Under the pieces are notes generated by a model. It ran no database searches. It was not told where the DNA came from and was given only the letters and a program-made list of their open reading frames with translations. A stretch of 64,000 nucleotides of DNA, taken from the NCBI RefSeq assembly GCF_008000815.1, contig NZ_CP042806.1, forward strand, positions 4,774,001 to 4,838,000, in the 5' to 3' direction. This document shows positions 16,054 through 61,470 of the stretch, one piece after another (within the stretch, counting starts at the first letter, position 1; each line of letters begins with the position of its first letter). This DNA comes from Terriglobus albidus. Its GTDB lineage: Bacteria; Acidobacteriota; Terriglobia; Terriglobales; Acidobacteriaceae. The position numbers and the translations under genes are program-made.

Positions 16054-16169
16054 TAGAGCATTTTCCCTGTTACTGGGTATCCCAGAGGGGCTTGCAGCGG
16101 CGTTTTCATTGCGGAAAACGCCCATCAGATGCGGAAGCCCTACACTGCACCTACAGGAAAAATACTCTA
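16054..16169. repeat. family B palindromic repeat, copy 1, ending in the lepB stop codon
   Basis: 116 bases with terminal inverted repeats: left TAGAGCATTTTCCCTGT, right ACAGGAAAAATACTCTA. Internal hairpins include GGGTATCCC and GCGTTTTC-ATTGC-GGAAAACGC. A nearly identical copy lies at 34781-34891 and a deleted copy beside it. The right-hand CTA (16167-16169) is, on the minus strand, the TAG stop codon of lepB. The element has no ORF and looks like a short non-autonomous palindromic element. Confidence 0.85.
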
Positions 16170-16715
16170 GCGCACTACGCCCATCTGGTCGAAGGGCCAG
16201 AAGACGAGCACAGCTTTACCGTAGATATATTTCCGGCCCACAGCTCCGAAGTCACGGCTGTCGCTCGATACCGAGCGGTGGTCACCCATGACCCAGTAAC
16301 TCTCCGGACCAACGGTCTGCAGCACCACGGAACGCTCATCGCGGAAACGCCCAGGCACATATGGCTCCGGCACGAGATTGCCATTGACATACACGCGGCC
16401 ATGACGAATCTCCAGCGTGTCGCCGGGTAACGCAATGACGCGTTTGATGTAACTCTTCGAAGGATCACGCGGATAGTTGAATACCACCACATCGCCGCGA
16501 TGAATATCACCGACGCGATATGCGACCTTGTTGATGAACAGGCGGTCCTGATCTTCGAGCCGCGGCAGCATTGATGTTCCTTCCACCACGACCGGCTGGT
16601 AAAGGAAGATGATGATAAACGCCGAGATTGCGATGGAGATGACGAAGTCGCGAATCCATCCCGTCACCTGACGGGCGGGCTGCTGCGCTTGGCTCGGTTT
16701 TAGCTCGTCGTGCAT
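16167..16715 (-). CDS. lepB: signal peptidase I
   Basis: 182 residues. A short cytoplasmic N-terminus, one membrane helix (about 23-40, FVISIAISAFIIIFLYQ), then the peptidase S26 fold. The catalytic serine is S48 in EGTSMLPRL and the lysine is K91 in YIKRVIALPGD; box D GRVYVNGNLV and box E MGDHRSVSSDSRDFG are clear. It removes signal peptides from exported proteins at the outer face of the inner membrane. Start taken at ATG 16715, behind AGGTGG; the ORF to 16748 adds only 11 residues. The TAG stop coincides with the edge of a family B repeat. It lies 40 bases after the beta-lactamase-like gene and is probably co-transcribed. Confidence 0.95.
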   Translation of the reverse strand: MHDELKPSQAQQPARQVTGWIRDFVISIAISAFIIIFLYQPVVVEGTSMLPRLEDQDRLFINKVAYRVGDIHRGDVVVFNYPRDPSKSYIKRVIALPGDTLEIRHGRVYVNGNLVPEPYVPGRFRDERSVVLQTVGPESYWVMGDHRSVSSDSRDFGAVGRKYIYGKAVLVFWPFDQMGVVR

Positions 16716-16755
16716 GACCACCTGAAATATTAGACGGGGTGATACCACTAATCTA

Positions 16756-17718
16756 CTACTTCAGGCCCAGTCCCGGTTTCATTTGCCGGGCGTCCAGACC
16801 CTCCGGGGACCATTCCTGCACAATCTCCCGGGCAATTCTGGCAATGGTTCCTTCTCCTTCGTTATCCGTCGTCCAGCTCGTGTCCTTGTTCTGCCAGGTG
16901 AAGATGCTGATCACGATTGGCCCGGATTTAGCCGCCACGATTGCCACATCATTCCGTACAGCATTCAAGGAGCCGGTCTTGCTGGCGATCGCTGACCCGG
17001 CCTCGCTGGAGTCCAGCGTCTCCAGATAACGCGGGATGGTATTGCGGTAGAACTGGTTCCGGAGCATGTTCAGTGCGGTCTGGCAGATAGCCTCGTCCTG
17101 GGGCTGCGACGGTCCCCCGAGGTCGCAGCGGCCGATCTTCTCCATAACCGTCGCCATCTCGTGTGCAGTGGTCTTTCCCAGGCCAAACTTTGGCTGATCC
17201 TCGGGCATGGGCTCCGTTGCAGGCTTCATCACTTTCTTATAGAAGTGCGTGTCTTTCACGCCGAGCGCGTGAATGCGATCATTCACCGCCTTCACGCCGA
17301 AGCGGTCGATCGCCAGGTTGGTGGCCGTGTTGTCACTGAGAATGACCATCAGGGTGAGAACGTCCTTCAGCGTCAATTCCTTGGGCGGATCCATAAAGGT
17401 CAGCACGCCCGAGCCGCTGACAGCATCGCCAGGTTTCAGCACGATCTTTTCGTCCCATTTCGCCTTGCCGTCACGGATCTGCTCCATGGCTTCATACAGC
17501 ATCGTCAGCTTGATAACAGATGCCGTCTGGACAGGTACATCCTCGTCTACTGCAATGACTTTGCCGGTATTGAGCTGCCGCGCGTAAACAGCAACTTTGC
17601 CATGATGAGCCGCGACTAACCCGCGGATGGCTCCGGGGACGTGGTCCTGTGCGTGGGTCAGGGATGTCGTCGCGAGACAGAGGCAGGTCTGAAACCAAAA
17701 TTTCCGGAAGTGAAACAT
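16756..17718 (-). CDS. class A beta-lactamase-like serine hydrolase, exported
   Basis: 320 residues, with a signal peptide (about 1-24, ending LTHAQ). Three catalytic motifs of the family are in order: S67-V-I-K70, S128-D-N130 and K247-T-G249. The omega-loop motif ExxLN that supplies the general base Glu166 in class A enzymes is not evident. The matching stretch reads KKVMKPATEPMPEDQP, so the base may be displaced or missing. It could be a beta-lactamase or a penicillin-binding-type hydrolase. Start taken at 17718 because it gives the signal peptide and follows AAGGTG; the ORF to 17907 runs across the divergent gene's promoter. Divergent from the lipoprotein gene, upstream of lepB. Confidence 0.82.
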   Translation of the reverse strand: MFHFRKFWFQTCLCLATTSLTHAQDHVPGAIRGLVAAHHGKVAVYARQLNTGKVIAVDEDVPVQTASVIKLTMLYEAMEQIRDGKAKWDEKIVLKPGDAVSGSGVLTFMDPPKELTLKDVLTLMVILSDNTATNLAIDRFGVKAVNDRIHALGVKDTHFYKKVMKPATEPMPEDQPKFGLGKTTAHEMATVMEKIGRCDLGGPSQPQDEAICQTALNMLRNQFYRNTIPRYLETLDSSEAGSAIASKTGSLNAVRNDVAIVAAKSGPIVISIFTWQNKDTSWTTDNEGEGTIARIAREIVQEWSPEGLDARQMKPGLGLK

Positions 17719-17827
17719 AAATGGCACCTTAACATAACAAAGGATCAACCAACACTTTCGGGTACTTAGCCATCCAAGCAAAAGTATCGTTCCTTCCAAC
17801 ATGCACGATCGTAAGAAAGGACTTCGT

Positions 17828-18568
17828 ATGTCTCGTTCGTTTTCTCTCGTAGCCACCCTTATTTTGGCCACGGTCGGTTTCACCGGATGCAAGAGCTCAC
17901 AGCCCACGACACCTCCAGGGCAGTCGCCTGACAGCGCCAGCCAGCCCGCAAACAGTCAGCCGGCACCCGCCGGAACAGCAACGGCGCCTTCGGGCACCGC
18001 TGGCAGTTCAGCAGCCCCGCGTGAGGCGCGTGCTCCTCGCCCTGCTGCTCCTGCCGCCCCGGTCGTCACCACGGTGACGGTTCCGGATGGCACCCGGGTT
18101 GGAGTCCGCGTAAACCAGACCATATCCGCCAAAACCTCGAATGTGGGTGACGGATGGAGCGGTGTGCTGAATGCCCCAATCGTCGTCGGTGAGACCACCG
18201 TCTTCCCGCGTGGCACCGAAGTGAGCGGCACTGTGATCGCGGCCAAGGGACAAGGACGTTTCAAGGGCGCGGGCGCTCTCGGAATCGAGCTGAGCGAGAT
18301 CGGTGGAATGCGTGTGTCGTCCTCTCCCTACGAGGTAGCGGTAAAGGGTAAGGGCAAGCGTACTACCGGATTCATCGCCGGCGGCGCCGGTCTGGGCGCC
18401 TTGATCGGTGGCCTGGCGGGCGGCGGTAAAGGAGCCGCGATCGGTGCCGCCTCCGGCGCCGGCGCCGGCACGGCTGGCGCGGCCTTCACCGGAAACAAGG
18501 ATGTAACGATCCCCGCGGAGACCCTTATCAACTTCACCCTTACGGCTCCTCTGACGGTTCGTAAGTAA
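17828..18568 (+). CDS. glycine-zipper lipoprotein
   Basis: 246 residues. Signal MSRSFSLVATLILATVGFTGC with a lipobox-like FTGC, so Cys21 is probably lipidated. Then a Pro/Ala/Ser/Thr-rich linker (about 25-85), a beta-rich domain (TVTVPDGTRVGVRVNQTISA, FPRGTEVSGTVIAAKGQGRF) resembling periplasmic proteins that begin with a DGTxVxVRL strand, and a glycine zipper near the C-terminus (GFIAGGAGLGALIGGLAGGG and onward) able to insert in a membrane. ATG 17828 follows AAGGA with a 6-base spacer. Function unknown; an envelope-structural role is reasonable. Confidence 0.75.
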   Translation: MSRSFSLVATLILATVGFTGCKSSQPTTPPGQSPDSASQPANSQPAPAGTATAPSGTAGSSAAPREARAPRPAAPAAPVVTTVTVPDGTRVGVRVNQTISAKTSNVGDGWSGVLNAPIVVGETTVFPRGTEVSGTVIAAKGQGRFKGAGALGIELSEIGGMRVSSSPYEVAVKGKGKRTTGFIAGGAGLGALIGGLAGGGKGAAIGAASGAGAGTAGAAFTGNKDVTIPAETLINFTLTAPLTVRK

Positions 18569-18590
18569 GTAGTCAGGACTGGAAACCAAT

Positions 18591-18621
18591 AGCGGGCGCT
18601 GAGAATCTCTCCGCGCCCGCT
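18591..18621. terminator. 9-bp hairpin between the lipoprotein gene and engB
   Basis: AGCGGGCGC and GCGCCCGCT form a perfect stem around a 13-base loop, 22 bases after the lipoprotein stop. No T-run follows, so it may be a weak terminator or a structure in the engB leader. Confidence 0.4.
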
Positions 18622-18633
18622 ACACTTAACAGC

Positions 18634-19224
18634 GTGAAGGTTTCCGTAAAGTTCCTGCTCTCGGCCACCAGTCCGTCGCATTTCCCTGCCCCCACGGTGC
18701 CTGAGGTCGCGTTTCTGGGCCGCTCCAACGTCGGTAAGTCCAGCCTGATCAACGCGTTACTGGGAACTACCGTCGCCCGGGTCTCGTCCACGCCCGGCCG
18801 CACACGGGCCATCAATTTCTTTGCCCTGTCCACCTCGCCGAATGCGCCCGCGAAGATGATCTTTGCCGACCTGCCGGGATACGGCTACGCCAAGATCTCG
18901 AAGTCCATCTCCGCGGAATGGCCCTCGTTCATTGAGCCATACCTTACCGATCGCGAGTCACTGGCGCTCTCAGTCTGCCTGGTCGATACCAATATCCCGC
19001 CGCAGGCCAGCGACCGCATGCTGATCGACTTCCTGCAACAGCACCAGAGGCCGTATCTGGTTGTCGGAACTAAGGCAGACCGGCTCTCCAACAATACGCT
19101 GTCGAAGTCGATTGCACTGTTGAAACGGGAGCATCAGATCGACGATCTGGTTCCGTGCTCGGTTAAGAAGCCGGATGGGACAAAGGCTCTATGGTCACGC
19201 CTGCTGGCAGCACTGCCGTCATAG
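18634..19224 (+). CDS. engB: ribosome biogenesis GTP-binding protein EngB/YsxC
   Basis: 196 residues, the usual length. The GTPase motifs are G1 GRSNVGKSS (29-37), the G2 threonine region STPGRTRAINFF, G3 DLPGYGYA and G4 TKAD; the Ser of G5 appears as CSVKKPDG. EngB assists late assembly of the large ribosomal subunit. Start is GTG at 18634. The 3' end overlaps the 3' end of the convergent urocanase-like gene by 62 bases. Confidence 0.94.
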   Translation: MKVSVKFLLSATSPSHFPAPTVPEVAFLGRSNVGKSSLINALLGTTVARVSSTPGRTRAINFFALSTSPNAPAKMIFADLPGYGYAKISKSISAEWPSFIEPYLTDRESLALSVCLVDTNIPPQASDRMLIDFLQQHQRPYLVVGTKADRLSNNTLSKSIALLKREHQIDDLVPCSVKKPDGTKALWSRLLAALPS

Positions 19225-19855
19225 CATCCCGTTCCTGCTCCGTCAGCCATAGATAACGCCGTGGCGGCTGCTCGCGGCGAAAGAACTTCGGAGCACCGAC
19301 AACCCAACCGCGGCGCGCATCACCGTCCGTAATCAGACCTGCGGTTGCCTGCTCGGCGAAGCGCAAATCTGCATTCGACCCCGCCGTAAGCCTGCACGGA
19401 ATCCAGCCCGGCTGCGCTGCAACGGTCTCTCCGGACTCCAGCAAGTGAACCAGGTTCTCTGTCCGCTCGGCGGGAATCGCATCTTCCGCAGAACGAGTTA
19501 CCAGCAACTGAGGGTAGACGCCGCGCTCACCGATCTCCTTCAGGATGGCAGAGGTATTCCCCTCCAGCACGACGGTCAATGGGCGGCGTTTGCGAACCTC
19601 ATTTTTCATGGTCCTCAACGCTTCATCCAGCGTGTTCACCAGGAAATCGCAGTAGCCGCCACGCATCGCAACACGCGCCTGTGCCGGATCCGCTTCCACG
19701 CTCAGGCAGACAGCTCCGCAGAGATTGGCGGCAACTGCCAGGGCTGAACCGAGGTCATCTACGCCGCGATGTATCAGGATGCTTCCACCCCAATCTGAGC
19801 GATGCGCCCGAAGAGCCCCGTAGAGCCTCCAAGCGGAGAGCTGGCGGTCTACCAT
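19163..19855 (-). CDS. urocanase-like Rossmann-domain protein at the end of the secretin operon
   Basis: 230 residues, no signal peptide. The first two thirds resemble the central NAD-binding domain of urocanase (HutU): GSALAVAANLCGAVCLSVEAD, GGYCDFLVNTLDEALRTMK, a PLTVVLEGNTSAILKEIGERG segment, then VYPQLLVTRSAEDAIP. Full urocanase is about 550 residues; the flanking domains are absent. The C-terminal third (YLWLTEQERDAMTAVL) is unfamiliar. No other histidine-degradation gene is nearby. It starts 7 bases inside the preceding pseudopilin gene, so it belongs to that operon, and its 3' end overlaps engB by 62 bases on the other strand. The urocanase resemblance is my reading by eye. Confidence 0.6.
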   Translation of the reverse strand: MVDRQLSAWRLYGALRAHRSDWGGSILIHRGVDDLGSALAVAANLCGAVCLSVEADPAQARVAMRGGYCDFLVNTLDEALRTMKNEVRKRRPLTVVLEGNTSAILKEIGERGVYPQLLVTRSAEDAIPAERTENLVHLLESGETVAAQPGWIPCRLTAGSNADLRFAEQATAGLITDGDARRGWVVGAPKFFRREQPPRRYLWLTEQERDAMTAVLPAGVTIEPLSHPAS

Positions 19856-20250
19856 GTCGAATACATGCTGCCGTCGGTGCCGATCTCCTGCGATCCGCTA
19901 TGGACATCCTGAATGCCCGTGTCCGTCTGATCGACGGAGCTGTAGGTACCGTCGGAGCTGGTCTGCCAGGTATCGCTGCGATGGGTAAAGGGATCGATCG
20001 GCATCGCTTTCAGATACCCCGCCTGTACCAGGTCTTCCAGGGACTGAGGACCTTTCTCCTTATCGACAGTGTAAGAGTCGATCGCCTGCCGCATGGTTTG
20101 CAGGTCTTCCTTCAGGACAGCCTCTTTGGCTTTCTTGACCGCATTCTGATATGCAGGGATAGCCATTGCCATCAAAAGAAGAATGATGGTCATCACAATG
20201 ATGAGTTCAATCAGAGTGAAGCCGCGTTCGGGGTTCCGCTTCCTTACCAT
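19849..20250 (-). CDS. type II secretion GspG-like major pseudopilin
   Basis: 133 residues. A prepilin leader MVRKRNPERG is cleaved before FTLIELIIV, whose Glu5 is the conserved pilin residue, followed by a hydrophobic helix (to about residue 33). The LPxDP-type segment MPIDPFTHRSDTWQ and a C-terminal region with spaced Asp residues (SSVDQTDTGIQDVHSGS) match GspG calcium-site architecture. It overlaps the upstream pseudopilin gene by 7 bases and the downstream urocanase-like gene by 7 bases, so all are one transcript. Confidence 0.85.
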   Translation of the reverse strand: MVRKRNPERGFTLIELIIVMTIILLLMAMAIPAYQNAVKKAKEAVLKEDLQTMRQAIDSYTVDKEKGPQSLEDLVQAGYLKAMPIDPFTHRSDTWQTSSDGTYSSVDQTDTGIQDVHSGSQEIGTDGSMYSTW

Positions 20251-20711
20251 TCGGAGTACCTCGATCCGTCAAGTCCTGTGCCTGTGCTGCGGGTGTGCAC
20301 ATCGAAGACATTCTGTCCGCCCCAGCTATCGCTGCTTGGGTCATCCTGCATGGAGCGCAGCCCCCAGTCAGTATTTCCGGTCATTGGATCTTTAGGAATC
20401 TGCCTCAGGAAACGCACCTTGTGCCCCTGTACATCTACACCGTTGACCAGGGTCTCCAGGTCGGGCGGATAGTTCATGCTCTCGAGCTTGGTCTGAAAGG
20501 CGCCGCGATCGGCAGCGTCTTTATAACGGTCAATCGCCGCACGCATCTCCCACAAATCTCGCCGGAGCTCCCGTTCTCTTTGACGCTTGAGCTGGAACCG
20601 CGCAATCGGAAGCACCGCGGACGCAAGGATGGCGATGATCGCTGTCGCTACGATCAGTTCCACCAGGGTGACGCCCGCCTCCCCCCTTCGGTTTGGAGCA
20701 TGCTTCGGCAT
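20244..20711 (-). CDS. type II secretion-type pseudopilin (second)
   Basis: 155 residues. The prepilin cleavage site lies at EAG with VTLVELIVATAIIAILASAVLP as the N-terminal helix (Glu5 present, first residue Val rather than Phe). An IPKDPMTGNTDWGLR segment and a closing GLDGSRYSEW mirror the partner pseudopilin (GTDGSMYSTW), so the two are likely paralogues. The stop overlaps the next start by 7 bases; the start is 3 bases from the secretin stop. No prepilin peptidase or assembly ATPase gene is in the window. Confidence 0.82.
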   Translation of the reverse strand: MPKHAPNRRGEAGVTLVELIVATAIIAILASAVLPIARFQLKRQRERELRRDLWEMRAAIDRYKDAADRGAFQTKLESMNYPPDLETLVNGVDVQGHKVRFLRQIPKDPMTGNTDWGLRSMQDDPSSDSWGGQNVFDVHTRSTGTGLDGSRYSEW

Positions 20712-20714
20712 GGC

Positions 20715-23066
20715 TTACTTCACGTGCACAATGGCCTGAGAACCGACAGCCGGCAGATTCACCTGCACCGAGTTCTGAGCGCCCACCTTCGTCAGCATGA
20801 GGTTGGAATCACCCGCGGCAGTGGCCTTGAAGGTCAGCACGCAGATGCTCCCCTGTCCATCGACACCCTTTGTCGAAGGCGGACGCGAGGCAGAGATCGT
20901 GACCATTCCATTGCCCTCATCGCGATGCGCCAGAGCCACAGCCTGACCGTCACGGCCCAGCATCTCCCCGCTGTCCACGTTCACCAGTTGCAGGACCTGC
21001 GGATTGAACTGCATTTGCAGCGGCACCGAGTACAGGTCGCGAGCATTCGAAGCCATGACTGCCACCTGGAAGGTGCTGCCAACGGCCTGGGTCGCATTGC
21101 CCGGCGTAATCGCAAAACTGACAGGCGCGGCCACCGGAGCCGAGGTCCTAGCCGTACCGTCCTGCTGAAGCTGCTGAAGAGCAGCATTTGCTGCGGCGGC
21201 AGCCGTCGTACGCTGTGCAGGCGGAACAAGCGGCCCGCCGGGACCGTCAGCCCCCGTCGTCCTGGTTGACGCAGAATCCTGCCCTGCTTCGCGGCGCAAC
21301 TCAATCGACTGGCTGGTGCCCGTATCAATGGCGCGCGTGTTCATGCGGCTCAACAAGCTCTCTCGCACCAGGTGCGGAATCAGTAGGAAGACAACCTCAT
21401 CCTGCGACTGGGTCTTTGACCTGGAACCAAAGACATACTTCAGAATCGGGAGTTCTCCCAGACCGGGAGTTCCGCTCACACCTAATGAATCCTGCCGCTG
21501 GAGAATGCCCGCAAGAATGCTAGGCTCCCCCTCTTTCAGTTGGATCGTATGTTCAACGGAGCGCTGACTGATGATCGGTTGCGTAACCGAACTGATGGTC
21601 ACCGAACCGCTCTGGGAGGTGACCTCGATCTTCATCTTCAGCGTAATATCCCGATCCGTGTGCACGGTCGGCGTCATATCGATGTTGACACCAACATCGA
21701 TATAGGTGAACTGGGTGTTCACAAGCGCGCTGACGGCGGTCGTCGTACCGGAAGCGAATGATCCGGTTGCGATAGGAATCTTGGAACCGATCTTCAGTGT
21801 CGCCTTTTGTCCATCGGTTGCGCGAATCCGGGGATTCTGCAGAATGCGCGTGTCGCTGTCCGTAAGCAGCGCATTCACCGTGCCGGTTCCGATGGCCACG
21901 TTGAAGTTGTTTCCATTGAGGTGGGCCAACTGATTGAGTGTCAGAGCGCTGTTGTTGTTCGAAGAAGACGAACTGGAGCTCGAACTCGAGCTGGAGCTGG
22001 ACGAACTGGTACTGGAAGTACTCGACGTAACAGGAGTGACCGCAAAGGACTGCGGAAGCGTAATACCCAGATTACGAACCTTCTCGCGGTTTACTTCGAG
22101 AACGGCTACATCGACCACGACCTCCGGCTTGGTGCGATCGAGATCGTTCAGAAGTTTCTGCGCCAATAGAAGCTGGTCAGGTGTGGCCCGCATCACGACC
22201 GCGTTCTGGCTGGGAATGGCAAAGACGCCGACGTTCTGCCCGGTACCGAAGACGTTGCGCAGCGCAGTGACAATTTCGTTGGTGTCAGCGGTCTGGGTGG
22301 CATTGGTCAGATAAAAGGTCTGGACCGCCATCTCGTCCAGGTCTTGACGCTTATTACGGGTGTTCTGCGCTACCAGGATGGTGTTTTCTGTCACCGGCTT
22401 CCAGAAGGTACCGGAGATGGCGCCCACAATGCGCAGGGCGTCATACAGTGACACATTATTCAATTCCACCGGGATACGCGTGGAGGTATACGCCGGATCA
22501 AACAGAACATTCAGGCCCGCGGCCTTGCCGATGGCCTGATAGATATTCTTCGTGTCTTCCACCATGCGAAGCGTGATGGGGTCATTCGAGATGGGCTTGA
22601 GAGAGACCGGTCCGCCCAGCCCGGAAATTTCGGCCTGAGTGGCCAGAATTCCGCTCTCCAACGACTGCAGTTGTGGTGATGGGGGAGCGGCCGCCATCTT
22701 CTGGGTGAGATCCAACTCCTGCTGTGCGGTCTGGTTCGCGGGATCGATCTGCAACGCACGAGTGAACTCCGTAAGAGCTCCGCCGAGGTCGCCTCCCTGC
22801 CGCAAAAGGCGTCCACGATCTACATGTGCCGTTGCCGCCTCAAAACGCAGGCGCTCCGTCTTCACCTTGTAGCGAATATCTCTTGGCTTTTTTGCGAGGG
22901 CCTGGCGATATGCCTCATACGCCGCGTCGTAGTCTTGCCGTTCTTCGGCTTGCTGCCCCCGTTTATAAAACGAGCCGGCAGACTGGGCATGCGCTGCCCC
23001 TCCGGTGAGGGCCAGAACGGTGACGACGAAGGCTGCATTGCGAAGGGACGTGAAGCTGCGATCCAT
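20715..23066 (-). CDS. GspD/PilQ-type secretin with TPR, poly-Ser loop and C-terminal cohesin domain
   Basis: 783 residues. Order: signal peptide (1-28); two to three TPR-like helices (32-130); an N0/STN domain (about 155-250, LNVLFDPAYTSTRIPVELNNVSLYDALRIV); an N1 domain (about 258-330); an insertion with about 16 consecutive serines (348-370); the secretin core (about 385-590, with the typical LxEGxPSxLAGILQRQD and GELPILKYVFGSR); a Gln/Ala/Pro linker; and a cohesin-like beta domain (about 655-783, FAITPGNATQAVGSTFQVAV, FNPQVLQLVNVDSGEML). It forms the outer-membrane pore for a type II-like export system. Start 23066 gives the signal peptide. Followed at 3 bases by two pseudopilin genes. 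Confidence 0.88.
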   Translation of the reverse strand: MDRSFTSLRNAAFVVTVLALTGGAAHAQSAGSFYKRGQQAEERQDYDAAYEAYRQALAKKPRDIRYKVKTERLRFEAATAHVDRGRLLRQGGDLGGALTEFTRALQIDPANQTAQQELDLTQKMAAAPPSPQLQSLESGILATQAEISGLGGPVSLKPISNDPITLRMVEDTKNIYQAIGKAAGLNVLFDPAYTSTRIPVELNNVSLYDALRIVGAISGTFWKPVTENTILVAQNTRNKRQDLDEMAVQTFYLTNATQTADTNEIVTALRNVFGTGQNVGVFAIPSQNAVVMRATPDQLLLAQKLLNDLDRTKPEVVVDVAVLEVNREKVRNLGITLPQSFAVTPVTSSTSSTSSSSSSSSSSSSSSSSNNNSALTLNQLAHLNGNNFNVAIGTGTVNALLTDSDTRILQNPRIRATDGQKATLKIGSKIPIATGSFASGTTTAVSALVNTQFTYIDVGVNIDMTPTVHTDRDITLKMKIEVTSQSGSVTISSVTQPIISQRSVEHTIQLKEGEPSILAGILQRQDSLGVSGTPGLGELPILKYVFGSRSKTQSQDEVVFLLIPHLVRESLLSRMNTRAIDTGTSQSIELRREAGQDSASTRTTGADGPGGPLVPPAQRTTAAAAANAALQQLQQDGTARTSAPVAAPVSFAITPGNATQAVGSTFQVAVMASNARDLYSVPLQMQFNPQVLQLVNVDSGEMLGRDGQAVALAHRDEGNGMVTISASRPPSTKGVDGQGSICVLTFKATAAGDSNLMLTKVGAQNSVQVNLPAVGSQAIVHVK

Positions 23067-23128
23067 GTTTCTATAGAGGCTCAAATATGTGGGTGAAATC
23101 GGACCGCTCCCCGCTTGCTGATGGCGAA

Positions 23129-23137
23129 AGTATAGCA
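23129..23137 (-). promoter_or_regulatory. extended -10 promoter candidate for the secretin operon
   Basis: On the minus strand the sequence reads TGCTATACT, an extended -10 (TGnTATAAT-like) box about 62 bases before the secretin ATG. No good -35 is seen, as is common for extended -10 promoters. Confidence 0.35.
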
Positions 23138-23236
23138 TTCCGTTTCTCTTAGACGCCGACCCTGCCCTTGAGGCTGGCCGCCGAAGACATGGCCAGAGTT
23201 GGAATCTTTTGCCGCGTGTTAACATCAAACGTCCAG

Positions 23237-23770
23237 ATGGCCCGTTCTGTAAGCCAACCCGTTCCCGGAGCTGTTAAGGCGCGCCCCACGCGCCCGCGTG
23301 ATCCCGTGGCGACGGGAGAGCGGGACGCCGCGCAGAATCGCGCTGCCAGCCACAATTATTTCCTGACCGACCGTTTTGAGGCCGGCGTCGCCCTGCGCGG
23401 TACTGAGGTCAAATCCGTCCGCGAAGGCAAAGCCAACCTGAAAGACGCCTACGGTCTGGTAAAAGACGGAGAAATCTACCTCCTTAACGCGCACATCGGT
23501 CCCTTCTCTCATGGCAATGCCATGAATCATGATTCGCTGCGGACCCGCAAGCTGCTGCTGCACAAGGAGGAGATTCGCAAGCTAGTAAGTAAGACGACAC
23601 AGAAGGGCTTTACGCTTGTTCCGACGCGCCTTTATTTCAGGCACGGCCGCGTGAAATGCGAGCTGGCCCTGGCCAGAGGCAAGCAGGATTGGGATAAGCG
23701 CGAGACCGAGCGGCGTCGGGAAGCCGACAAAGAAGCTCGCGCTGCCGTGGCACGTGGTCAGCGGCGCTGA
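23237..23770 (+). CDS. smpB: SsrA-binding protein SmpB
   Basis: 177 residues with this start. SmpB binds tmRNA and brings it to stalled ribosomes in trans-translation. Motifs: NRAASHNYFLTDRFEAGVALRGTEVKSVREGKANLKDAY, LLNAHIGPF, RTRKLLLHKEEIRKL, LVPTRLYF and a basic tail with GKQDWDKRETERRREADKE. The N-terminus before NRAASHNYF is longer than usual; a GTG at 23306 would give a more typical 154-residue protein, and neither start has a strong ribosome site. Divergent from the secretin operon. Confidence 0.93.
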   Translation: MARSVSQPVPGAVKARPTRPRDPVATGERDAAQNRAASHNYFLTDRFEAGVALRGTEVKSVREGKANLKDAYGLVKDGEIYLLNAHIGPFSHGNAMNHDSLRTRKLLLHKEEIRKLVSKTTQKGFTLVPTRLYFRHGRVKCELALARGKQDWDKRETERRREADKEARAAVARGQRR

Positions 23771-23832
23771 TTGTCGAATTGCCGACATTCCGTCTACGAT
23801 GGACTTTCTTCTCCACCGTTACCATCGTTACC

Positions 23833-25356: not shown

Positions 25357-25382
25357 AAATAAAGAAGTAAACGTGCTTCAGA

Positions 25383-25742
25383 ATGCAGCAACAACCAACG
25401 ATTCTTTTCGTCGATGACGAACCCGTCCTGCGCGAGCTTCTCCCCCTGTGGCTCGCGCAGCATGGATACCGCGTGCTAACGGCCTCGAGCGGAGAAGAGG
25501 CCTTAGCGATTCTGCAAAGAGAGACCGTCGATGTTCTGCTGACCGATTACAACCTTCCTGGTATCAGCGGAGCGCAATTGATCGAACAGGTTCCGGACAA
25601 GCCCGCGCTCGTCCTGTATTCCGATGCAGCCGACTTTCCAGAGAAGGAAAAGCACCGCCTCAAAATTAGAGCGGTGCTCTCCAAGCCCATTCGGCGCGAG
25701 ATCCTACTCTCCGCGCTCAAAGACATCACGCTCCGAAGCTAG
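25383..25742 (+). CDS. stand-alone response-regulator receiver domain
   Basis: 119 residues: one CheY-like receiver and nothing else. The acidic pair is D11-D12 (FVDDEP), the phospho-acceptor is D55 in LLTDYNLPG, and the Lys is in VLSKPI. The switch Thr/Ser is probably the Ser in LVLYSDA. With no output domain it would signal by binding a partner. No kinase gene is adjacent, so the partner is unknown. It follows pepA and ends at a strong hairpin shared with argS. Confidence 0.88.
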   Translation: MQQQPTILFVDDEPVLRELLPLWLAQHGYRVLTASSGEEALAILQRETVDVLLTDYNLPGISGAQLIEQVPDKPALVLYSDAADFPEKEKHRLKIRAVLSKPIRREILLSALKDITLRS

Positions 25743-25743
25743 A

Positions 25744-25771
25744 GCTGGACGGCGGACCTCCGCCGTCCAGC
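25744..25771. terminator. 13-bp hairpin between convergent receiver and argS genes
   Basis: GCTGGACGGCGGA and TCCGCCGTCCAGC form a perfect 13-bp stem with a 2-base loop, right after the receiver stop and 19 bases from the argS stop. T-runs are missing on both sides, but position and stability suit a two-way transcription stop. Confidence 0.5.
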
Positions 25772-25789
25772 CCGGGCGATCATGTTGGT

Positions 25790-27766: not shown

Positions 27767-27778
27767 ACACTCTCTACT

Positions 27779-28795
27779 TTACGGAAGCTCAACAGGAAGC
27801 TCTTGGACTTCCTGGGACAACGAAGGGTGCGGGCCGCGCCGCGCCCGATGTAACAGGAACATGACACCGCCAGCAGCGGTTACCGTGAACAGGATAAAGA
27901 CATGGACCACCAGGGCGAAGACCACAGCAGGTGTCTCCGCCGCTCCATGCGAGACCATAGCCAGTTTGGCGGTGAATTCGAAGGTCCCCACGGCTCCCGG
28001 CGAGCTCGGGATGAGATAAGAAAGGTTGCTGAAGGCCAGAGCCCCCCAAGGCCCGATCCAGTCACTCACAATTCCCAAGGCACGCGTCATCGCGACGAAA
28101 ATCATTCCCTCACACGCCCATAAGACAAAAGACTCCAGCAGAAGAGCCAGCCGCACCGGGAGAGAGATGATGGCAATTGCATCCAGCGCCGAGACCAAAC
28201 GAGCCTCAATCTTGCCGACCAGCCCGGGATGCGGTAACAGGTTCAAGAGCTTCCTGAAAGGCGATTTAAGCTTTCCCGCAGCCAGCAGAAGCACCAGCAC
28301 CGCACCGCTCACTCCCAGCAACAGCACACGCGCCACGATCTGAGTTTTGTGCGAAATCAGCGTCGAATTGCGCCCCATGGTAGCCACAAATAGAAGCAGC
28401 AGCGTGAAGACGTCCAGAACGCGTTCCAGAACCACGGTGCTCAAAATCACAGGAGCGGTTGAGTCCAGATCACCGGCATAGCTGAAGACACGGAGAAAAT
28501 CTCCAATGCGGAGCGGCATGATGTTATTCGCCGCAAAGCTGGTCATCAGTACGCGGGCACAGGCGGAGAACTTCGCGCGGCTGGAAGCACGCATCATCAG
28601 CCACCAGCGATGTGACCGCAATGTATAACCGGCAACAAGAAAGATCACGGCCACCAGCATCCACGCGGGTTCCACCAGCCGTACCTGGCGCAGACCGGCA
28701 TAGTTCACCTTGCGGAAGGTGAACCAAAGAAAAAAACCGCTGATCAGAAAACCGGGGACTGTTTTCAGCAAATTGCGGCGCTGCTGCGGCGTCAT
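27779..28795 (-). CDS. lysylphosphatidylglycerol synthase-type TM protein (UPF0104 flippase-like)
   Basis: 338 residues with about eight membrane helices. Family signatures: ANNIMPLRIGDFLRVF, LERVLDVFTLLLL and YLIPSSPGAVGTFEF. This integral domain (PF03706) is the flippase half of MprF; stand-alone members are thought to move or modify lipids or lipid-linked glycans. The catalytic aminoacyl-transferase half is absent, so lysyl transfer is unlikely. The neighbouring argS may be chance. Confidence 0.85.
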   Translation of the reverse strand: MTPQQRRNLLKTVPGFLISGFFLWFTFRKVNYAGLRQVRLVEPAWMLVAVIFLVAGYTLRSHRWWLMMRASSRAKFSACARVLMTSFAANNIMPLRIGDFLRVFSYAGDLDSTAPVILSTVVLERVLDVFTLLLLFVATMGRNSTLISHKTQIVARVLLLGVSGAVLVLLLAAGKLKSPFRKLLNLLPHPGLVGKIEARLVSALDAIAIISLPVRLALLLESFVLWACEGMIFVAMTRALGIVSDWIGPWGALAFSNLSYLIPSSPGAVGTFEFTAKLAMVSHGAAETPAVVFALVVHVFILFTVTAAGGVMFLLHRARRGPHPSLSQEVQELPVELP

Positions 28796-28862
28796 GCGGT
28801 TATCCTTGGACGGGCCTTGGGAGCGGGCACGGGCAACAGTTCATGGGTGCGGAGCATCGTCC

Positions 28863-28868
28863 TTATTA
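28863..28868 (-). promoter_or_regulatory. -10 box candidate for the flippase-argS unit
   Basis: A perfect TATAAT on the minus strand lies 68 bases before ATG 28795. The -35 region at the usual spacing is poor. This is the only consensus hexamer in the 176-base divergent gap. Confidence 0.35.
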
Positions 28869-28971
28869 TAGTGAGGACGACGAGCTGGCCCATTTTCTTC
28901 CCGCGATTGAGCGACATCGAAACTTTTTCCACAATGCTGTTCGTCTAAATATCTCGGAGCCCTTCTAACCA

Positions 28972-30498
28972 TTGGCCACGTTCGTAGTAACGCAACCGCG
29001 ACCGGTAGAGCGCACTGTTCGCCAGTTCACCGCCTCCCGCAGCGGACAGGCCCTGGTTCTGGCTGTTCTCACTCTTGCGGCACTGGTCATTCATGGCTAC
29101 CACCCCTATAGCGAAGATGGCGGTATTTATATCGCCGCTGCCCAACACGCGCTGCAGCCCCAGCTCTTCCCCCATCTCAGCCAGTTTGCGAATGCACACG
29201 TCTCCTGCCTCTTCTTTTCGCGGATGATGACCGGCATTGTGACGCTGACGCATCTGAGCCTGACCTGGGTCTTTTTTCTCGGCTATCTGGCCTCCGTCTA
29301 TCTCACTCTGAGCGGGCTGCACAGCATTCTGCAAACGTGCCTGCACAGCGAGGCAGCCAGGTGGTTCGCTCTGTTTCTCTTCACTGCGATCATGTCGATG
29401 CCCGTCGCAGGGACATCGATCATCATGGCGGATCCCTATCTCACCTCGCGTTCGCTTGGTCTTCCGATGGTGCTCTTTGCCATCGCCGAAGCCCTGCAGG
29501 ACCAGCCACGCTGGATGCGCATCGTGATCTTCCTTATACCCGGCAGCCTGCTCCACCCACTGATCGCGGCCTGCGGGGTCTACTTGATCGCTCTGATTGT
29601 TGCCCTTCGTAGCGGAAGCCGCGCCATGGTATATGGCGTCATTGCATTTGCCCTGACGACATCGACGGCCGTCCATTGGCTTGCGCCTGTCGAATCCCCT
29701 GCATATCGCGAAGCCGCCGTCTCCCGAACCTACTGGTTCCTGACCCGATGGAGCTGGGATGAGATCGTAGGTGTGATCGCCCCGATTCTGTTGCTGTGGG
29801 CGCTGGACCGCTTTCGTCCCACAACTTTCACCGACACCTTTTCGACCTTTCTACGGGCTCTCTGTCTTGGCGGGATCGTCACCATCGTGGTCAACCTGTT
29901 GTTTGCACATCCCGGGAGCAGCAATCACCTGGTTGCCAGCCTGCAGCCTCTGCGTTTTTTCACATTTCTTTATCTGGCGATGGTCCTGGCGCTCGGCTCA
30001 CTGCTCGCTCTGCTGCCTCGCAGAATTGTTGGCGGATTCATCATTGCCGCGCTCGCAGCATATCTCTTCCTCGTCCAGCGCAATATCTATCCGAACACAG
30101 CCCACCTGGAGCTCCCCTGGCGAGGCTTGTCGAATGAGTGGGAACGCGCCTTCCTCTGGGTACGGGAACACACGCCGCAGGACGCAGTGTTCGCGATGGA
30201 CTCCGACTACCACAATCTTCCGGGTGAGGACACACATGTCTTCCGCGCCATTGCGCTGCGCGATGCATTGCCGGACTACTCCAAAGATGGAGGGATCGCT
30301 GCTGTAAAACCATCCATCGCCAGCGACTGGGTCAGTGGCGTCGCCCTACAGCGTGATCTCGATGACCTGGATGACACGACACGTATCGCCAGAATGAAAT
30401 TGGCGGGCGTGACCTGGGTCATACTTCGCCCTTCAGCCAACACCCGCCTTGATTGTCCCTACATCGATCACGATATCCGAGTCTGCCGGATTCCGTAG
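28972..30498 (+). CDS. polytopic membrane protein, GT-C-like topology
   Basis: 508 residues, not recognised by name. About ten to eleven hydrophobic helices span residues 25-390, followed by a soluble C-terminal domain (about 400-508). The first loop after helix 1 carries acidic residues (GYHPYSEDGGIYIAAAQ), the place where GT-C glycosyltransferases keep a catalytic acid. The tail has WVREHTPQDAVFAMDSDYHNLPGEDTHVFRA, similar to C-terminal domains of membrane glycosyltransferase-like proteins. Start given as TTG 28972; a GGAG lies 12 bases upstream, so the true start may be a little later. Convergent with the DUF3857 gene (18 bases apart). Confidence 0.6.
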   Translation: MATFVVTQPRPVERTVRQFTASRSGQALVLAVLTLAALVIHGYHPYSEDGGIYIAAAQHALQPQLFPHLSQFANAHVSCLFFSRMMTGIVTLTHLSLTWVFFLGYLASVYLTLSGLHSILQTCLHSEAARWFALFLFTAIMSMPVAGTSIIMADPYLTSRSLGLPMVLFAIAEALQDQPRWMRIVIFLIPGSLLHPLIAACGVYLIALIVALRSGSRAMVYGVIAFALTTSTAVHWLAPVESPAYREAAVSRTYWFLTRWSWDEIVGVIAPILLLWALDRFRPTTFTDTFSTFLRALCLGGIVTIVVNLLFAHPGSSNHLVASLQPLRFFTFLYLAMVLALGSLLALLPRRIVGGFIIAALAAYLFLVQRNIYPNTAHLELPWRGLSNEWERAFLWVREHTPQDAVFAMDSDYHNLPGEDTHVFRAIALRDALPDYSKDGGIAAVKPSIASDWVSGVALQRDLDDLDDTTRIARMKLAGVTWVILRPSANTRLDCPYIDHDIRVCRIP

Positions 30499-30516
30499 TT
30501 CATTATTACTGCCGCC

Positions 30517-32535
30517 TTAGTTGCTCGCCCCCGTGGTCGTAGCCGCCGGTGCAGGCTGTAACACGACGTTCTCCTGATCCTTGGCCTGCAGCTTGTTATA
30601 GAAGGTCCGGATTGTCGGATAGTCGGTGACTGGATAAATCAGGCCGTTGCGCGCCAGGTTACGCCGAACCGTGATCGTGTTCGTCACCTGCTGGCTGCTG
30701 ATGTCATACAGCATGCTGTCGAGGATCTTATCCTGCGCTGTCGCGGGAGCCGACTCAACCTTCATCCCAGCCGGAAGAACATACCGCACGGCATCGCGCT
30801 CCCATACCTCATAGTTGAAGTAGATCGGAAGCTCGCGCTTGTCATGCGGGAACGCCGCCTTGGCGCGCGACTCGTAGATGTCACCCGGAAGGATCATGCG
30901 CTTGGAGGTTGTAGCGCCTACCGGCCCACTTACCTTCAGCGTCACTCTCAAGGGCTTTTCGTAGTCATAGAGCTGTTCGATCTTCGTGACTTCCGCTTCC
31001 ATGCCATTGGGCAGCATGGCTTCTACAGCGTCCTTCAGATCCCGATTCAACTCCGTTTCGTCCGTGCGGGATGCACGTTGACGCCAGCGTACGGCAGGAG
31101 CTCCCATAAACGTAACCACACCAACACCAGTTGCCTTACCCGTTTCATCGAGTTTCAGGTCGGCCACTCGTTGCACCTGGGAGTATTTATAGCTCTCACC
31201 CGGCAGCTCTGCGACCTTAACGCCCTGGTCGCTCTGACGAATGCCGCCGGCATACGTATGCTTCCAGTCCAGATGGCCGTAGGGGACGTACTTCATACCT
31301 GGATCAAAGAACTGCTCCTTACCGTCCACTACAACAATGGCGATCAGATCGTCCAACTGGACAAGGTCAAGCCATCCAGGAAGAAAAACACGATCATCAC
31401 GCCGCACAACCGCCATACCGTAGGCTTTCATGCCGGCCGCGCGCGCCATTGCGAGAAAGAGCTTCGTCAAATCGTCCCCGCTGCCGCGCTTGCGCGTGAG
31501 GATATCATCCGCTGTCTTGACCGTTTTTAGACCATTGGCCTTATCTTCGGAGGCACTTCGCGCGCGGGTGAAGTCGGTGTTGTCCATTGCCATCACAGCG
31601 GCATAGATCTTCTTCAGCTTGTCTTCCTGCGTCGTGGCCCCGCCAGTACTTTCCGTGGTGAAGGTCCGCACGGCCGAGGAGGGCTCGGCAAACTTATCGA
31701 TGTCCTTTGACCATTTCTTGCCTTCCGACTGCCAGAACTCATCCGCCGTCCGATAGCTCAGGTAATAGAACATCACCCGGTAGCTATTGCTCTTCATGGG
31801 AGGCATATAGTCCTCCTCAACCACAGCCGGAATATCCTTCGCGTTCAACTCGAAGATGATCTGTCCGTTGTTTCCATTCACAGCAGGCAATTGGGTCTGC
31901 TTGATTTCCGTACCTTTGGGAAGAATCGGTGTCCAGGAGATTCGTGTATTGTTCTTTCCGTCAGAGAAATACAGATCCTTGGTGCTGGGCTTCCATACGT
32001 AATGCGCCTTCTGCATGTATAGATCTCCCTGAACGTCCCAGCGAGGGAAGGTGTAGTAGTTATCATCCCAGCGTCTCTTATAACGGAGTTCGATAATGCT
32101 GCCTACTGTGACGTCGGGAAGAGTAACGACTTTTGCCGTGTACTTATTCCCCTTGGTCTTTTCCATGACCTTTTCATAGGGCTTTCCGGTGTACGGGATA
32201 ATTGTGCCGTCTGGATGAATCGTGCGACCCTGAACATCGTCGATATTCCAGTACCAGCCATCATTGCCGCGATACTGCACTAGTTCGTAGTTGGCTCTGT
32301 CTCTACCCTCTTCGCTAAGCACCTTGATGCGAACGTAGACACTGTGCATGTGCAAGGCATCCTCGGTCAGCTCGTCATAGTTCAAGATCACGGCTGAAGC
32401 TCCCGGCGCCTGCGGGAAACTCATCATCTTCAGTTCTTCCGGTGTTGGCGTAATCCACTGATCAGCAGCGTGCGCCACACTGCTTCCTACGACCAACGCC
32501 GCTGCCAGATATGCGGCTCTTACGATACGAAACAT
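30517..32535 (-). CDS. DUF3857/transglutaminase-like exported protein with degenerate active site
   Basis: 672 residues, signal peptide ending SVAHA. The N-terminal DUF3857 beta domain (about 40-270) is followed by a transglutaminase-like core (about 300-430) and a C-terminal beta domain (DUF2569-type layout not seen). At the catalytic Cys position the motif reads GSGDDLTKLFLAMARAAG: Asp355 (codon 31471-31473) replaces Cys. The His position also looks lost (QLDDLIAI), while the final FFDPGMKYVPYGHL is kept. It is therefore probably not a working transglutaminase or protease. It follows its equal-length paralogue by 25 bases, with GGAGGG before its ATG. Confidence 0.83.
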   Translation of the reverse strand: MFRIVRAAYLAAALVVGSSVAHAADQWITPTPEELKMMSFPQAPGASAVILNYDELTEDALHMHSVYVRIKVLSEEGRDRANYELVQYRGNDGWYWNIDDVQGRTIHPDGTIIPYTGKPYEKVMEKTKGNKYTAKVVTLPDVTVGSIIELRYKRRWDDNYYTFPRWDVQGDLYMQKAHYVWKPSTKDLYFSDGKNNTRISWTPILPKGTEIKQTQLPAVNGNNGQIIFELNAKDIPAVVEEDYMPPMKSNSYRVMFYYLSYRTADEFWQSEGKKWSKDIDKFAEPSSAVRTFTTESTGGATTQEDKLKKIYAAVMAMDNTDFTRARSASEDKANGLKTVKTADDILTRKRGSGDDLTKLFLAMARAAGMKAYGMAVVRRDDRVFLPGWLDLVQLDDLIAIVVVDGKEQFFDPGMKYVPYGHLDWKHTYAGGIRQSDQGVKVAELPGESYKYSQVQRVADLKLDETGKATGVGVVTFMGAPAVRWRQRASRTDETELNRDLKDAVEAMLPNGMEAEVTKIEQLYDYEKPLRVTLKVSGPVGATTSKRMILPGDIYESRAKAAFPHDKRELPIYFNYEVWERDAVRYVLPAGMKVESAPATAQDKILDSMLYDISSQQVTNTITVRRNLARNGLIYPVTDYPTIRTFYNKLQAKDQENVVLQPAPAATTTGASN

Positions 32536-32560
32536 CTCAACCCTCCGAAACCACCCGTCG

Positions 32561-34579
32561 TTACTTCTTTTTCAGAACGACATTGCTTTGCTCGTCGTAA
32601 CCGATCACACCCGCGAGCTTCTGCACTTCTTCGTATTTCTCCGCGGGTAACTCCACCTGCCGGACCACATACGTCCGTGTGTAATGCAACTTGTTCCCTT
32701 CAACCTTGCTGGCGCTCTCATAGGAAGCCCAACCCATGTCGATCTTCACCGGATCGGGCAACTCATCGGCCACGTAGCCATCTGGAAGTTCGATCTCGTA
32801 GTCGTCTTTCACTTCGCGCGCTGCGCCGAGATCAATGGGATACACACGTACTTTCTTGTCCGTGTCCAAGGTGTCTGTTCCAAGCACACGGGGGCGCATC
32901 ATAAGCAACGAGCCCGCCGGCCTGGCGAAGCTTGATGCTTTGAGTGCATAAGACATCTTCAAATCCTTCGTGAGCTCCATCGCATTTTCGACTTTGAGCC
33001 CGTCGTAGCTAAAATTCACCAGGTCGCGCCCGAGCATGCGATCAAAAATCTCGCGTTGCTCTTTTTCCGTTCCGGTACGGAAAAGCCGACGATGCCAATC
33101 GGCAATGTCACCGAATCGGCTTTCTAACATCTGACCATTCAGTGAACCATCTTCCGCCAGCTTGAATTGTCCCGTACGGTGGATGGAGTTCACATTAGGA
33201 CTGAGTATGGGGAATTCAATGACCTGACTGTCCTTGCCGTCTATCAGCACACCATAACCGCCCTGCAGATTGAACTCCAGGTGTCCGAAGGGGGTGTACT
33301 CCCATGTAGGGTCGAAGATCAAAAACCGTTTGCCGCTGTTCGCTTTCACAACAGCATGGAGCTTCGGAGACTCATATCCTGCCGGAAGCTCGATCGCGGC
33401 TACCATATGATTTGAGGCAATCGATGGAGCATTCGGATCCACTACACCTCGCTCGGTATCGACTCGCACCCATGTCGAGCGGATACCGATACTAGCAAGC
33501 ATGGCGGAGAGTAGTGTCGCTTTGTCTTTGCAGTCACCAGATTTGTTCTTGTAAATCAACTGCGCCGGATGAGGCTGGTTCCCACCTATGCCGATCTCGA
33601 TAGCGACATAGCGAATCTGACTCTGCACATATTCCCCAATTGCCTGGGCTCTATCTGCAAAGTCTGTTTTTCCAGCTATCAGTTCCTGCGCTTTGGCGGT
33701 GATTTCTGGTGTTGCATCGTTCCGTCCCTTAGCCAGAACCTCATACCATTCACCGATACTCTCCCAGGTTCCGTTCGTCGCATAGGGAGCCGCGGCACCA
33801 AAATAATGGACAGACATGCGCTTCATTTGTCCTCGCCGCTCCGGAGCCATATTGACATCCCGCAGGTCGAGTGGCGGTTCGTTGGAGACCTCCCACAAAT
33901 ATTTCCCTTTTTCAAGATCGACTGGGGTTGTTTCCTTCTTTCCCTTCCAGACCTCTTTGTAGTCCATCCCTGGCGGCAGTTCGACCTTCAGGCGCTCTTT
34001 CAGGACGGGTATTTCCTTCTGAACGCCCCAAATATATTCGGTGTAATAGGGTCTTGCTTCCTGTTCGTACTCCATGGCAACAATTGCGCCGGGATCTCCG
34101 GCCGGCGCAGTGCCTCCGCGATGGCGGTCATCGTTGTAGATCGAGTAACCATCATAGACAGCCTGATCGGTAATCTCGTTATCCTTCAATTCATACTCAT
34201 GACCATCCGGCCCAATGCTCCATATCTTCAATGACCGGATTTTCGAATCGCCATCATAGTACGTACCAAGATGGGCATACCCTCTTCCCTGCGGTCTAAG
34301 GATCTTGATCGCCCGTCGATGATGCTCCACCGCCCGCAAGTCGCCACCCACGGTATAGGTAGTGTCCGAAAGCAGGACAACGGCATTGGTATTTGCTGGA
34401 TATGAGGGCAAGGGCTGCTTCGCAGCCTCTTTCAGCCAGTCAGGCAGGACCGGTTTCTTTTCCGCTAATGCGGAAGGGCTAAGCAGCGCGAAGAAATATG
34501 CACATGCGAGGAGACGAACCGAGGAAGGAAAGGCAAGAGAACGATTCAGTAACACAGCTACAAACCCTTTGCAGATCAA
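32561..34579 (-). CDS. DUF3857/transglutaminase-like exported protein with intact triad
   Basis: 672 residues. The hydrophobic stretch LLACAYFFALLSPSALA is the signal peptide. DUF3857 (about 55-270) is followed by a transglutaminase-like core with Cys350 in KSGDCKDKATLLSAML, His in SNHMVAAIEL and Asp in FLIFDPTWEYTPFGHL, so the Cys-His-Asp triad is complete. Such proteins sit in the periplasm or outer membrane of acidobacteria and Bacteroidetes; substrates are unknown. The first codon is TTG 34579 with no clear ribosome site; GTG 34555 is an alternative. Lies downstream of the cellulose genes, separated by the two family B repeats. Confidence 0.83.
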   Translation of the reverse strand: MICKGFVAVLLNRSLAFPSSVRLLACAYFFALLSPSALAEKKPVLPDWLKEAAKQPLPSYPANTNAVVLLSDTTYTVGGDLRAVEHHRRAIKILRPQGRGYAHLGTYYDGDSKIRSLKIWSIGPDGHEYELKDNEITDQAVYDGYSIYNDDRHRGGTAPAGDPGAIVAMEYEQEARPYYTEYIWGVQKEIPVLKERLKVELPPGMDYKEVWKGKKETTPVDLEKGKYLWEVSNEPPLDLRDVNMAPERRGQMKRMSVHYFGAAAPYATNGTWESIGEWYEVLAKGRNDATPEITAKAQELIAGKTDFADRAQAIGEYVQSQIRYVAIEIGIGGNQPHPAQLIYKNKSGDCKDKATLLSAMLASIGIRSTWVRVDTERGVVDPNAPSIASNHMVAAIELPAGYESPKLHAVVKANSGKRFLIFDPTWEYTPFGHLEFNLQGGYGVLIDGKDSQVIEFPILSPNVNSIHRTGQFKLAEDGSLNGQMLESRFGDIADWHRRLFRTGTEKEQREIFDRMLGRDLVNFSYDGLKVENAMELTKDLKMSYALKASSFARPAGSLLMMRPRVLGTDTLDTDKKVRVYPIDLGAAREVKDDYEIELPDGYVADELPDPVKIDMGWASYESASKVEGNKLHYTRTYVVRQVELPAEKYEEVQKLAGVIGYDEQSNVVLKKK

Positions 34580-34707
34580 GCCAACGAGCGGGCCAAGGAA
34601 TGACGGGCAGAGAAGAGTTTCTTCCCCGCCTGACGTACCAAATTTGGTAATGTAGCTGCTTTATATCCTGCACAGTGAGGCGTGGCAAGAGAATTTGCAC
34701 AAGCTTT

Positions 34708-34782
34708 TAGAAGCATTTTCCCTTTTCTGAAAACGCCCATAGATGCGGAAGCCCTACTCTACGCCCCCGGGGAAATGCTTTA
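34708..34782. repeat. family B repeat, internally deleted copy
   Basis: The left end TAGAAGCATTTTCCCTTTT and the right end CCGGGGAAATGCTTTA match the family B termini. The GAAAACGCCCATAGATGCGGAAGCCCTAC interior half is kept, but the GGGTATCCC hairpin and neighbouring bases are gone. It abuts the full copy at 34781. With that copy it fills most of the 309-base gap 34580-34888, where no gene is seen. Confidence 0.75.
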
Positions 34783-34891
34783 GAGCATTTTCCCTGTTGC
34801 TGGGTATCCCGGAAGGGCGTGCAGCGCGTTTTCATTGCGGAACGCCCGTAGATGGGGAAACCCTACACCACACCTACAGGGAAATGTTCTA
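34781..34891. repeat. family B palindromic repeat, full copy, ending in the bcsC-like stop codon
   Basis: 111 bases, closely matching the copy at 16054-16169 along its whole length. Terminal inverted repeats are TAGAGCATTTTCCCTGT and ACAGGGAAATGTTCTA. The last CTA (34889-34891) is the TAG stop codon of the bcsC-like gene on the minus strand, the same arrangement as at lepB. Confidence 0.85.
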
Positions 34892-40216: not shown

Positions 40217-40358
40217 TCCTACTCGCAAAATCGTTAGGCGGCGCGAGGGGGTATCTAGAGAGACACCGCGTCGCAGCTTAGCTTACCGCTTTCTTAGGGT
40301 TTTGTCCCTGTTTTTTTCCGCTATTAACTGCGGAATCACTAGTTTACGGCGTGAGTTG

Positions 40359-61378: not shown

Positions 61379-61470
61379 TATAGAACGGGCCTTCAGCCCT
61401 TCACCCATAAACGCGCCAAGAAACCTGGGGCGCTGCCCCAGGCTGGTATAGAACGCACCTTCAGTGCTTT
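61379..61470. repeat. family C repeat: paired TATAGAAC motifs around a palindrome
   Basis: TATAGAACGGGCCTTCAGCCC at 61379 and TATAGAACGCACCTTCAGTGC at 61447 are imperfect direct repeats. Each ends in a small hairpin (GGGCCTTCAGCCC; GCACCTTCAGTGC), with compensating base changes in the stem. Between them is CCTGGGGCGCTGCCCCAGG (61424-61442). The form is that of REP sequences. It sits in the divergent gap between the toxin pair and the ABC-F gene. Confidence 0.7.

Follow-up and report, generated by a model that had tools for sequence, protein, structure and literature searches.

Two genes in the 64-kb stretch of Terriglobus albidus DNA analysed here (hereafter the window) end in a TAG stop codon that is at the same time the edge of a palindromic repeat, and a wider survey confirmed that this contact is right and general for the element family: the edge TAG was the stop of a called gene in 30 of the 77 copies found in 1.264 Mb of the genome. 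The element is very probably a non-autonomous mobile palindrome of the MITE or REPIN kind, which inserts at TA and rebuilds TAG stops and whose surviving copies gather at stop codons.

Structure of the element and its copies in the window

The repeat is a palindrome of about 112 bp with the core GAGCATTTTCCCTGT…ACAGGGAAAATGCTC, flanked on either side by TA, which gives TAG at both edges. From TA to TA it measures 111-116 bp; its inverted ends are 17 bp long, and a hairpin of 9 bp lies inside. On the plus strand of the window, copy 1 (16054-16169) is full length from TA to TA with its core at 16056-16167, copy 2 (34781-34891) is full length with small internal deletions, and copy 3 (34708-34782, edges set by eye from the sequence) is internally deleted; copies 2 and 3 have the terminal TA at 34781-34782 in common, and copies 1 and 2 are 91% identical across their first 47 nt. 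The right edge of copy 1 is the TAG stop (16167-16169, minus strand) of edge gene e18, which encodes a LepB-like signal peptidase (16167-16748, minus strand, 193 aa as listed, family match to Peptidase_S26, PF10502), and the right edge of copy 2 is the TAG stop (34889-34891, minus strand) of edge gene e19, a BcsC-like gene (34889-40228, minus strand, 1779 aa as listed, matching TPR repeats and BCSC_C, PF05420). Both contacts and the deleted copy adjoining the second element were thus as an earlier note on this DNA had described them. CTAC motifs were also present near the right end of the element.

Compared with dinucleotide shuffles, copy 1 folded better, with z-scores of -4.5 and -4.7 on the two strands and copy 2 with -4.3 and -2.6, the minus-strand value of the latter being equalled by 1 of 200 shuffles. 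Among the 26 pairs of the stem and hairpin, eight were altered on both sides across the copies (1.8 in shuffles, 2-7 in slid controls), lending modest support to continued pairing with compensatory changes. At the Rfam gathering score the element had no match in the window, where only a tRNA and Acido-Lenti-1 were detected, both outside the element; the Acido-Lenti-1 RNA (61424-61468) scored barely over the gathering cut-off. The element has the attributes of a MITE, being short, non-coding, bounded by terminal inverted repeats and dispersed in many copies (77 per 1.264 Mb), and its unit of 111-116 bp lies outside the definition of GTAG REPs as palindromes of 20-40 bp with a GTAG foot. The window also holds a second repeat family, a 44-nt inverted pair (3378-3421 and 60331-60374) that is 91% complementary and 57 kb apart.

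Family size and distribution

A profile built from 30 copies and run over three stretches of the T. albidus genome (G000; 1.264 Mb in total, with the window inside one of them) retrieved the 77 copies, 66 of them near full length, which extrapolates to about 390 copies per 6.4-Mb genome. The 15-nt end of the element matched 307 times in the whole genome at no more than one mismatch. Of the order's 298 genomes, 39, from 13 of 70 genera, contain this end extended by TA, and a control with the sequence reversed gave no match. Within the genus, copies are numerous in G000, G008, G012 and G015; in G010 the profile had two weak, partial hits, and in the remaining 14 members none. G017, used below for comparison, is one of the element-free genomes of this genus. 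Over loci L304, L317, L318, L320, L330 and L333 the genome analysed here is close to that of Terriglobus albidus DSM 26559, at about 86-91%. A Granulicella genome (G165) holds four identical copies (L261, L262, L264 and L266), whose identity is a sign of recent movement. Three head-to-tail copies with a 115-bp period and terminal TAs in common, like the adjoining pair of the window, lie at L330:4162-4507. Among the more unusual forms, the copy at L078:13744-14118 (G000 353744-354118) has a different palindromic repeat nested inside it, and a very short derivative at L111:10305 (G000 5048305) has as its edge the TAG stop of an ORF, as does a lone element end 1 kb away at L111:11284 (G000 5049284), which is not among the 77.

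Contact with stop codons and target sequence

Genes were called by our own simple codon-usage script, and for the count of 30 in 77 the edge of one deleted copy was set by hand. Full copies are entered by 28 genes, and all but one of these have their stop at the edge (27 vs 1, p = 2.5e-12 against one third). A looser ORF test placed the edge at a stop in 12 of 34 copies from other genera (some of them partial, and two, L254 and L267, from the same locus) and in 41 of 123 full copies in named-genome loci, some of whose insertions are shared. The two-of-two contacts reported in the earlier note were a small sample, with which the 30 of 77 agree.

The 66 full copies, read in element orientation, had a pyrimidine at position -1 in 57 cases, C at +2 in 36 and G at +3 in 43. 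The 39 copies away from stops had the same preferences when compared with the mirror positions (Y, 32 vs 21, p = 0.014; C at +2, 19 vs 10; G at +3, 24 vs 10, p = 0.003). In the T. albidus genome the target therefore lacks symmetry: it reads YTA|NCG along the element and CGN|TAR on the opposite strand. The 141 copies of the named-genome loci gave Y in 122 (mirror R at +1, 93), C at +2 in 77 (mirror 28) and G at +3 in 68 (mirror 37). The 25 copies of other genera were near-symmetric at the TA, with Y at -1 in 22 and R at +1 in 21, and among C at +2 (16, mirror 6) and G at +3 (8, mirror 5) only the former stayed one-sided. A one-sided YTA|NCG target is accordingly evident within the Terriglobus clade, and in other genera just in part.

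CGN|TAR corresponds to an arginine codon followed by a stop codon. CGN was the last codon of 9 of the 30 edge genes, compared with 53 of the 489 genes that end in TAR in G017 (p = 0.005). The TAG stops of the window are each composed of the TA of the target and the first G of the element. With regard to a target-site duplication, TA is found on both sides of the element and a single TA in an empty site; one of the two could be the element's own, and the target is asymmetric in G000. The earlier suggestion that TAG or CTAG is targeted was supported as to insertion at stop codons; CTAG as such is not the target, which in this genome is YTA|NCG, and both window stops are TAA in G017.

Share of copies at stop codons

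Stop-codon TAs make up 16% of the stop and intergenic TAs of G017, from which the observed 30 of 77 copies departs with p = 8e-7; computed from the TAs of the element's own genome, the chance share is 8%. Weighting by the target sequence, with weights derived from the very copies being explained, raised the expectation to 21-24% vs the 39% observed (p = 3e-4 to 2e-3). When divergent intergenic regions were left out, 30-33% was expected vs 30 of 68 copies (44%), with p = 0.008-0.04 in this mildest comparison. The copies are thus not placed at random relative to stop codons, in line with the earlier note. Divergent regions held 9 of the 77 copies vs 28-31% expected, and 16 of the 77 lay within 30 nt after a stop (12-13% expected), so that 46 of the 77 were at a stop or within 30 nt after it, vs 29-36% expected (p = 1e-6 at 33%). 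Preference for the YTA|NCG target, together with the loss of harmful insertions from genes and promoters, accounts for most but not all of the stop enrichment, leaving a modest excess (21-33% expected vs 39-44% observed) that may be due to the harmlessness of 3' ends, to function or to errors of the model.

Retention by function, in which copies at gene ends would persist for their hairpin's effect as a transcription terminator or as a shield for mRNA 3' ends, is an improbable account of the stop contacts. The gathering of copies at or shortly after stops, the strong folds and the partial covariation are consistent with it, but the gene-end excess may equally reflect absence of harm. A scan of the two window sites for intrinsic terminators (a G+C hairpin with a run of T after it) detected no such site made by the elements alone, and the one weak match, which straddled the end of lepB, compares with 0.4 expected. 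The right end of the element made 22 of the 30 contacts, close to the 63-68% predicted from target asymmetry, and orientation bias was rejected as a sign of function. The role as terminator or mRNA 3' end proposed in the earlier note accordingly received no direct support. By eye, orientation relative to replication was uneven between the genome stretches.

Stop codons before insertion

The 30 edge genes were compared with 0.8 Mb of G017, in which 14 had no match, five matched at only 21-32% identity and 11 had orthologues of more than 70% identity. In nine of these 11 pairs the two proteins have the same final residue, the stop in G017 being TAA in seven cases, TAG in one and TGA in one; of the other two orthologues, one ends one residue earlier and one 11 residues later. 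The LepB-like and BcsC-like genes both have a TAA stop in G017. Across 19 genomes of the genus, the LepB alignment reached the final residue or the one before it in 17, the others being one cut by a contig end and one devoid of an orthologue, and the BcsC-like protein aligned to its last residue in 16 of 19, with no match in the other three. The third base of the ancestral stop, rebuilt from both flanks, was A or G (that is, TAA or TAG) in 24 of the 25 copies with TA at both edges, five of the 30 edge copies being unreadable; at one edge copy, 4936741, the third base is T, and the G017 gene stops with TGA. Within the clade, two loci, L318 and L399, are occupied where G000 is empty, and the called genes of G000 end in TAG exactly there; the empty site matching L318 has a single TA.

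Since orthologues share the same end residue and the reconstructed sites read TAA or TAG, the contacts do not appear to be truncations, and the stops are most likely older than the insertions. That the coding sequence is spared, as the earlier note had supposed, was upheld by the 77-copy sample, the empty sites and the orthologue ends. Truncation by random insertion at TAs within genes, with the TAG edge creating premature stops, is hardly credible and was rejected: either edge supplies TAG, so that one third of in-gene insertions would end there by frame alone, and edge gene e21, whose orthologue continues for 11 residues, was possibly shortened, but 27 of 28 entering genes rather than a third stop at the edge, and both the orthologue ends and the third bases speak against it.

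Proposed mechanism and related repeats

We propose that a non-autonomous, MITE- or REPIN-like element inserts at TA within the site 5'-YTA|NCG-3' on its own strand, 5'-CGN|TAR-3' on the opposite one. After insertion, TA on each side of the GAGC...GCTC core would form TAG at each edge on the strand that enters the element, and where the TA hit belongs to a stop codon, TAA or TAG, an in-frame TAG stop would be rebuilt and the protein left unchanged. Insertions in genes would be purged by selection and those on the promoter side depleted, so that survivors would accumulate at or just after stop codons. The copies, their edges, the empty sites, the unchanged protein ends and the target bias were observed directly, and we infer from them purifying selection as the filter. 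A more specific and rather doubtful version is that of an acidobacterial mobile element whose recombinase, probably strand-asymmetric, recognises CGN|TAR and whose edges regenerate TAG, making stops a safe landing; selection for harmlessness may have shaped such an element.

As far as our searches show, the phenomenon is known, and what is new is the element family, its stop-like target and the evidence from empty sites. Neither this acidobacterial element nor a CGN-TAR target was the subject of any paper among the results of the literature searches, which covered few subscription papers. The accessible part of the work on the BOX repeats of Streptococcus pneumoniae reports that they encode the stop codons of 36 genes and that evidence for truncation of these genes is not strong; like the present element they are dispersed palindromic repeats that supply gene stops without clear truncation, but they are modular (boxA-B-C), belong to an unrelated host and have no stop-like target motif named in that part (PMC3049150). 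The termini of GTAG REPs are said, in the portion available, to 'often provide' a TAG stop to flanking ORFs, and these repeats resemble the element in their TAG-supplying termini, their location near gene 3' ends and their high copy number, whereas their units of 20-40 bp are often tied to RAYT genes and the element, of about 112 bp with 17-bp inverted ends, has no linked RAYT family (PMC3733652). The TIRtrons or TIRYT of Acidobacteria, described in the same portion, likewise have terminal inverted repeats, occur in the same phylum and include some repeat families, but their repeats flank a tyrosine transposase that was not found here, a distinction drawn from the description only (PMC3733652). 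REPINs are similar as inverted doublets with a predicted hairpin in single-stranded DNA or mRNA and hundreds of copies, and differ in their RAYT association, which was not found for the element; 'stop codon' does not occur in the main text as available (PMC3116915). The ERIC, Correia/NEMIS and RUP MITEs share with the element a size below 200 bp, inverted ends and TA at both termini, but RUP, according to the excerpt at hand, shares its ends with an IS630, and for the present element, with its asymmetric target in this genome, no such partner was found (PMC2229807).

For BOX and GTAG REPs, the supply of stops was thus noted before and its cause was not measured in the parts available; for the present element, the target motif, the empty sites and a quantified null together explain most of the stop-codon contact. 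They show a route by which mobile DNA can multiply to hundreds of copies within a compact genome with the proteins left whole. Annotators should be aware that a repeat supplies many of the TAG stops in these genomes.

Search for the mobilising enzyme

The combination of target asymmetry, hairpins and no autonomous copy would suit a trans-acting enzyme of the HUH/Y1 type that works on single strands, and the motif offers a defined target sequence as a guide in the search for that enzyme. A transposase with matching ends, DDE or Y1/RAYT, such as the earlier note had proposed to look for, was not found in the loci searched, nor was an autonomous partner with the same terminal repeats detected in 422 loci (3.5 Mb, overlaps included) or at L121.

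That a Y1 transposase (RAYT or TIRYT) acts in trans on single-stranded DNA, the element then being a REPIN, is a tentative but serious possibility. It would fit the asymmetric target in G000, the hairpins, the tandem copies and the hundreds of short copies with no autonomous version; Y1 genes were present in all 14 element-bearing genomes searched and absent from G017, but they are common throughout the family, with 106 of its 120 genomes carrying them. The Y1 gene at L239 (G008) has an element copy about 70 nt upstream, but its relatives at L231, L233 and L237 are without it. Overall, copies were found in 5 of 22 Y1 loci of 3.3 kb, where about four are expected from density, and in 0 of 30 in a second set; each of these loci was scanned whole, with 14 further Y1 places outside the scan, using a profile from G000 copies that may miss diverged ones. 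In some of the loci the script had picked an open frame other than that of the Y1 gene, which leaves these whole-locus scans unaffected. End-like matches with up to three mismatches in six further Y1 loci were taken as chance, by estimate. RAYT/Y1 was set aside as the demonstrated driver, there being no family-wide flanking link in the 52 loci and Y1 genes being too common for co-occurrence to tell.

An IS630/Tc1-type enzyme, with the element an IS-derived MITE that has a symmetric TA target, a true TA duplication and an IS with the same terminal repeats, is also possible, if somewhat less than probable. It would agree with the 17-bp inverted ends, the TA on both sides and the single TA of the empty site, and known MITEs such as RUP behave likewise in the part of the source available (PMC2229807). 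An asymmetric target such as that of G000 would be unusual if the enzyme were a symmetric DDE transposase, but this argument is weakened by the near-symmetric YTAR of the 25 copies in other genera, which moved weight toward DDE and away from Y1; L239 was also counted against Y1. Against an IS630-type enzyme, two DDE_3 genes, L121 and L122, score equally in the genome, and L121, the one whose ends were read, differs there from the element; IS630 was likewise set aside as the demonstrated driver.

Also against an IS partner, the 422 loci contain five pairs of otherwise unpaired ends at an IS-like spacing, none of them with an evident transposase: three are the same copy with the nested palindrome, one spans 260 bp and one, at L111, 980 bp. 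The 980-bp pair opens with a short degenerate copy and contains an ordinary-looking frame of 151 aa. Double copies in Granulicella were rejected as flanks of a transposase, the genes between them giving the impression, from their translations, of a cytochrome P450, a regulator and others. Several Y1 (RAYT-like) genes of this clade are flanked, by eye, by different palindromes of their own, unlike the element studied here (L220, L221 and L226; L222, L228 and L236; L224 and L232), an observation that weighs against Y1 as its enzyme.
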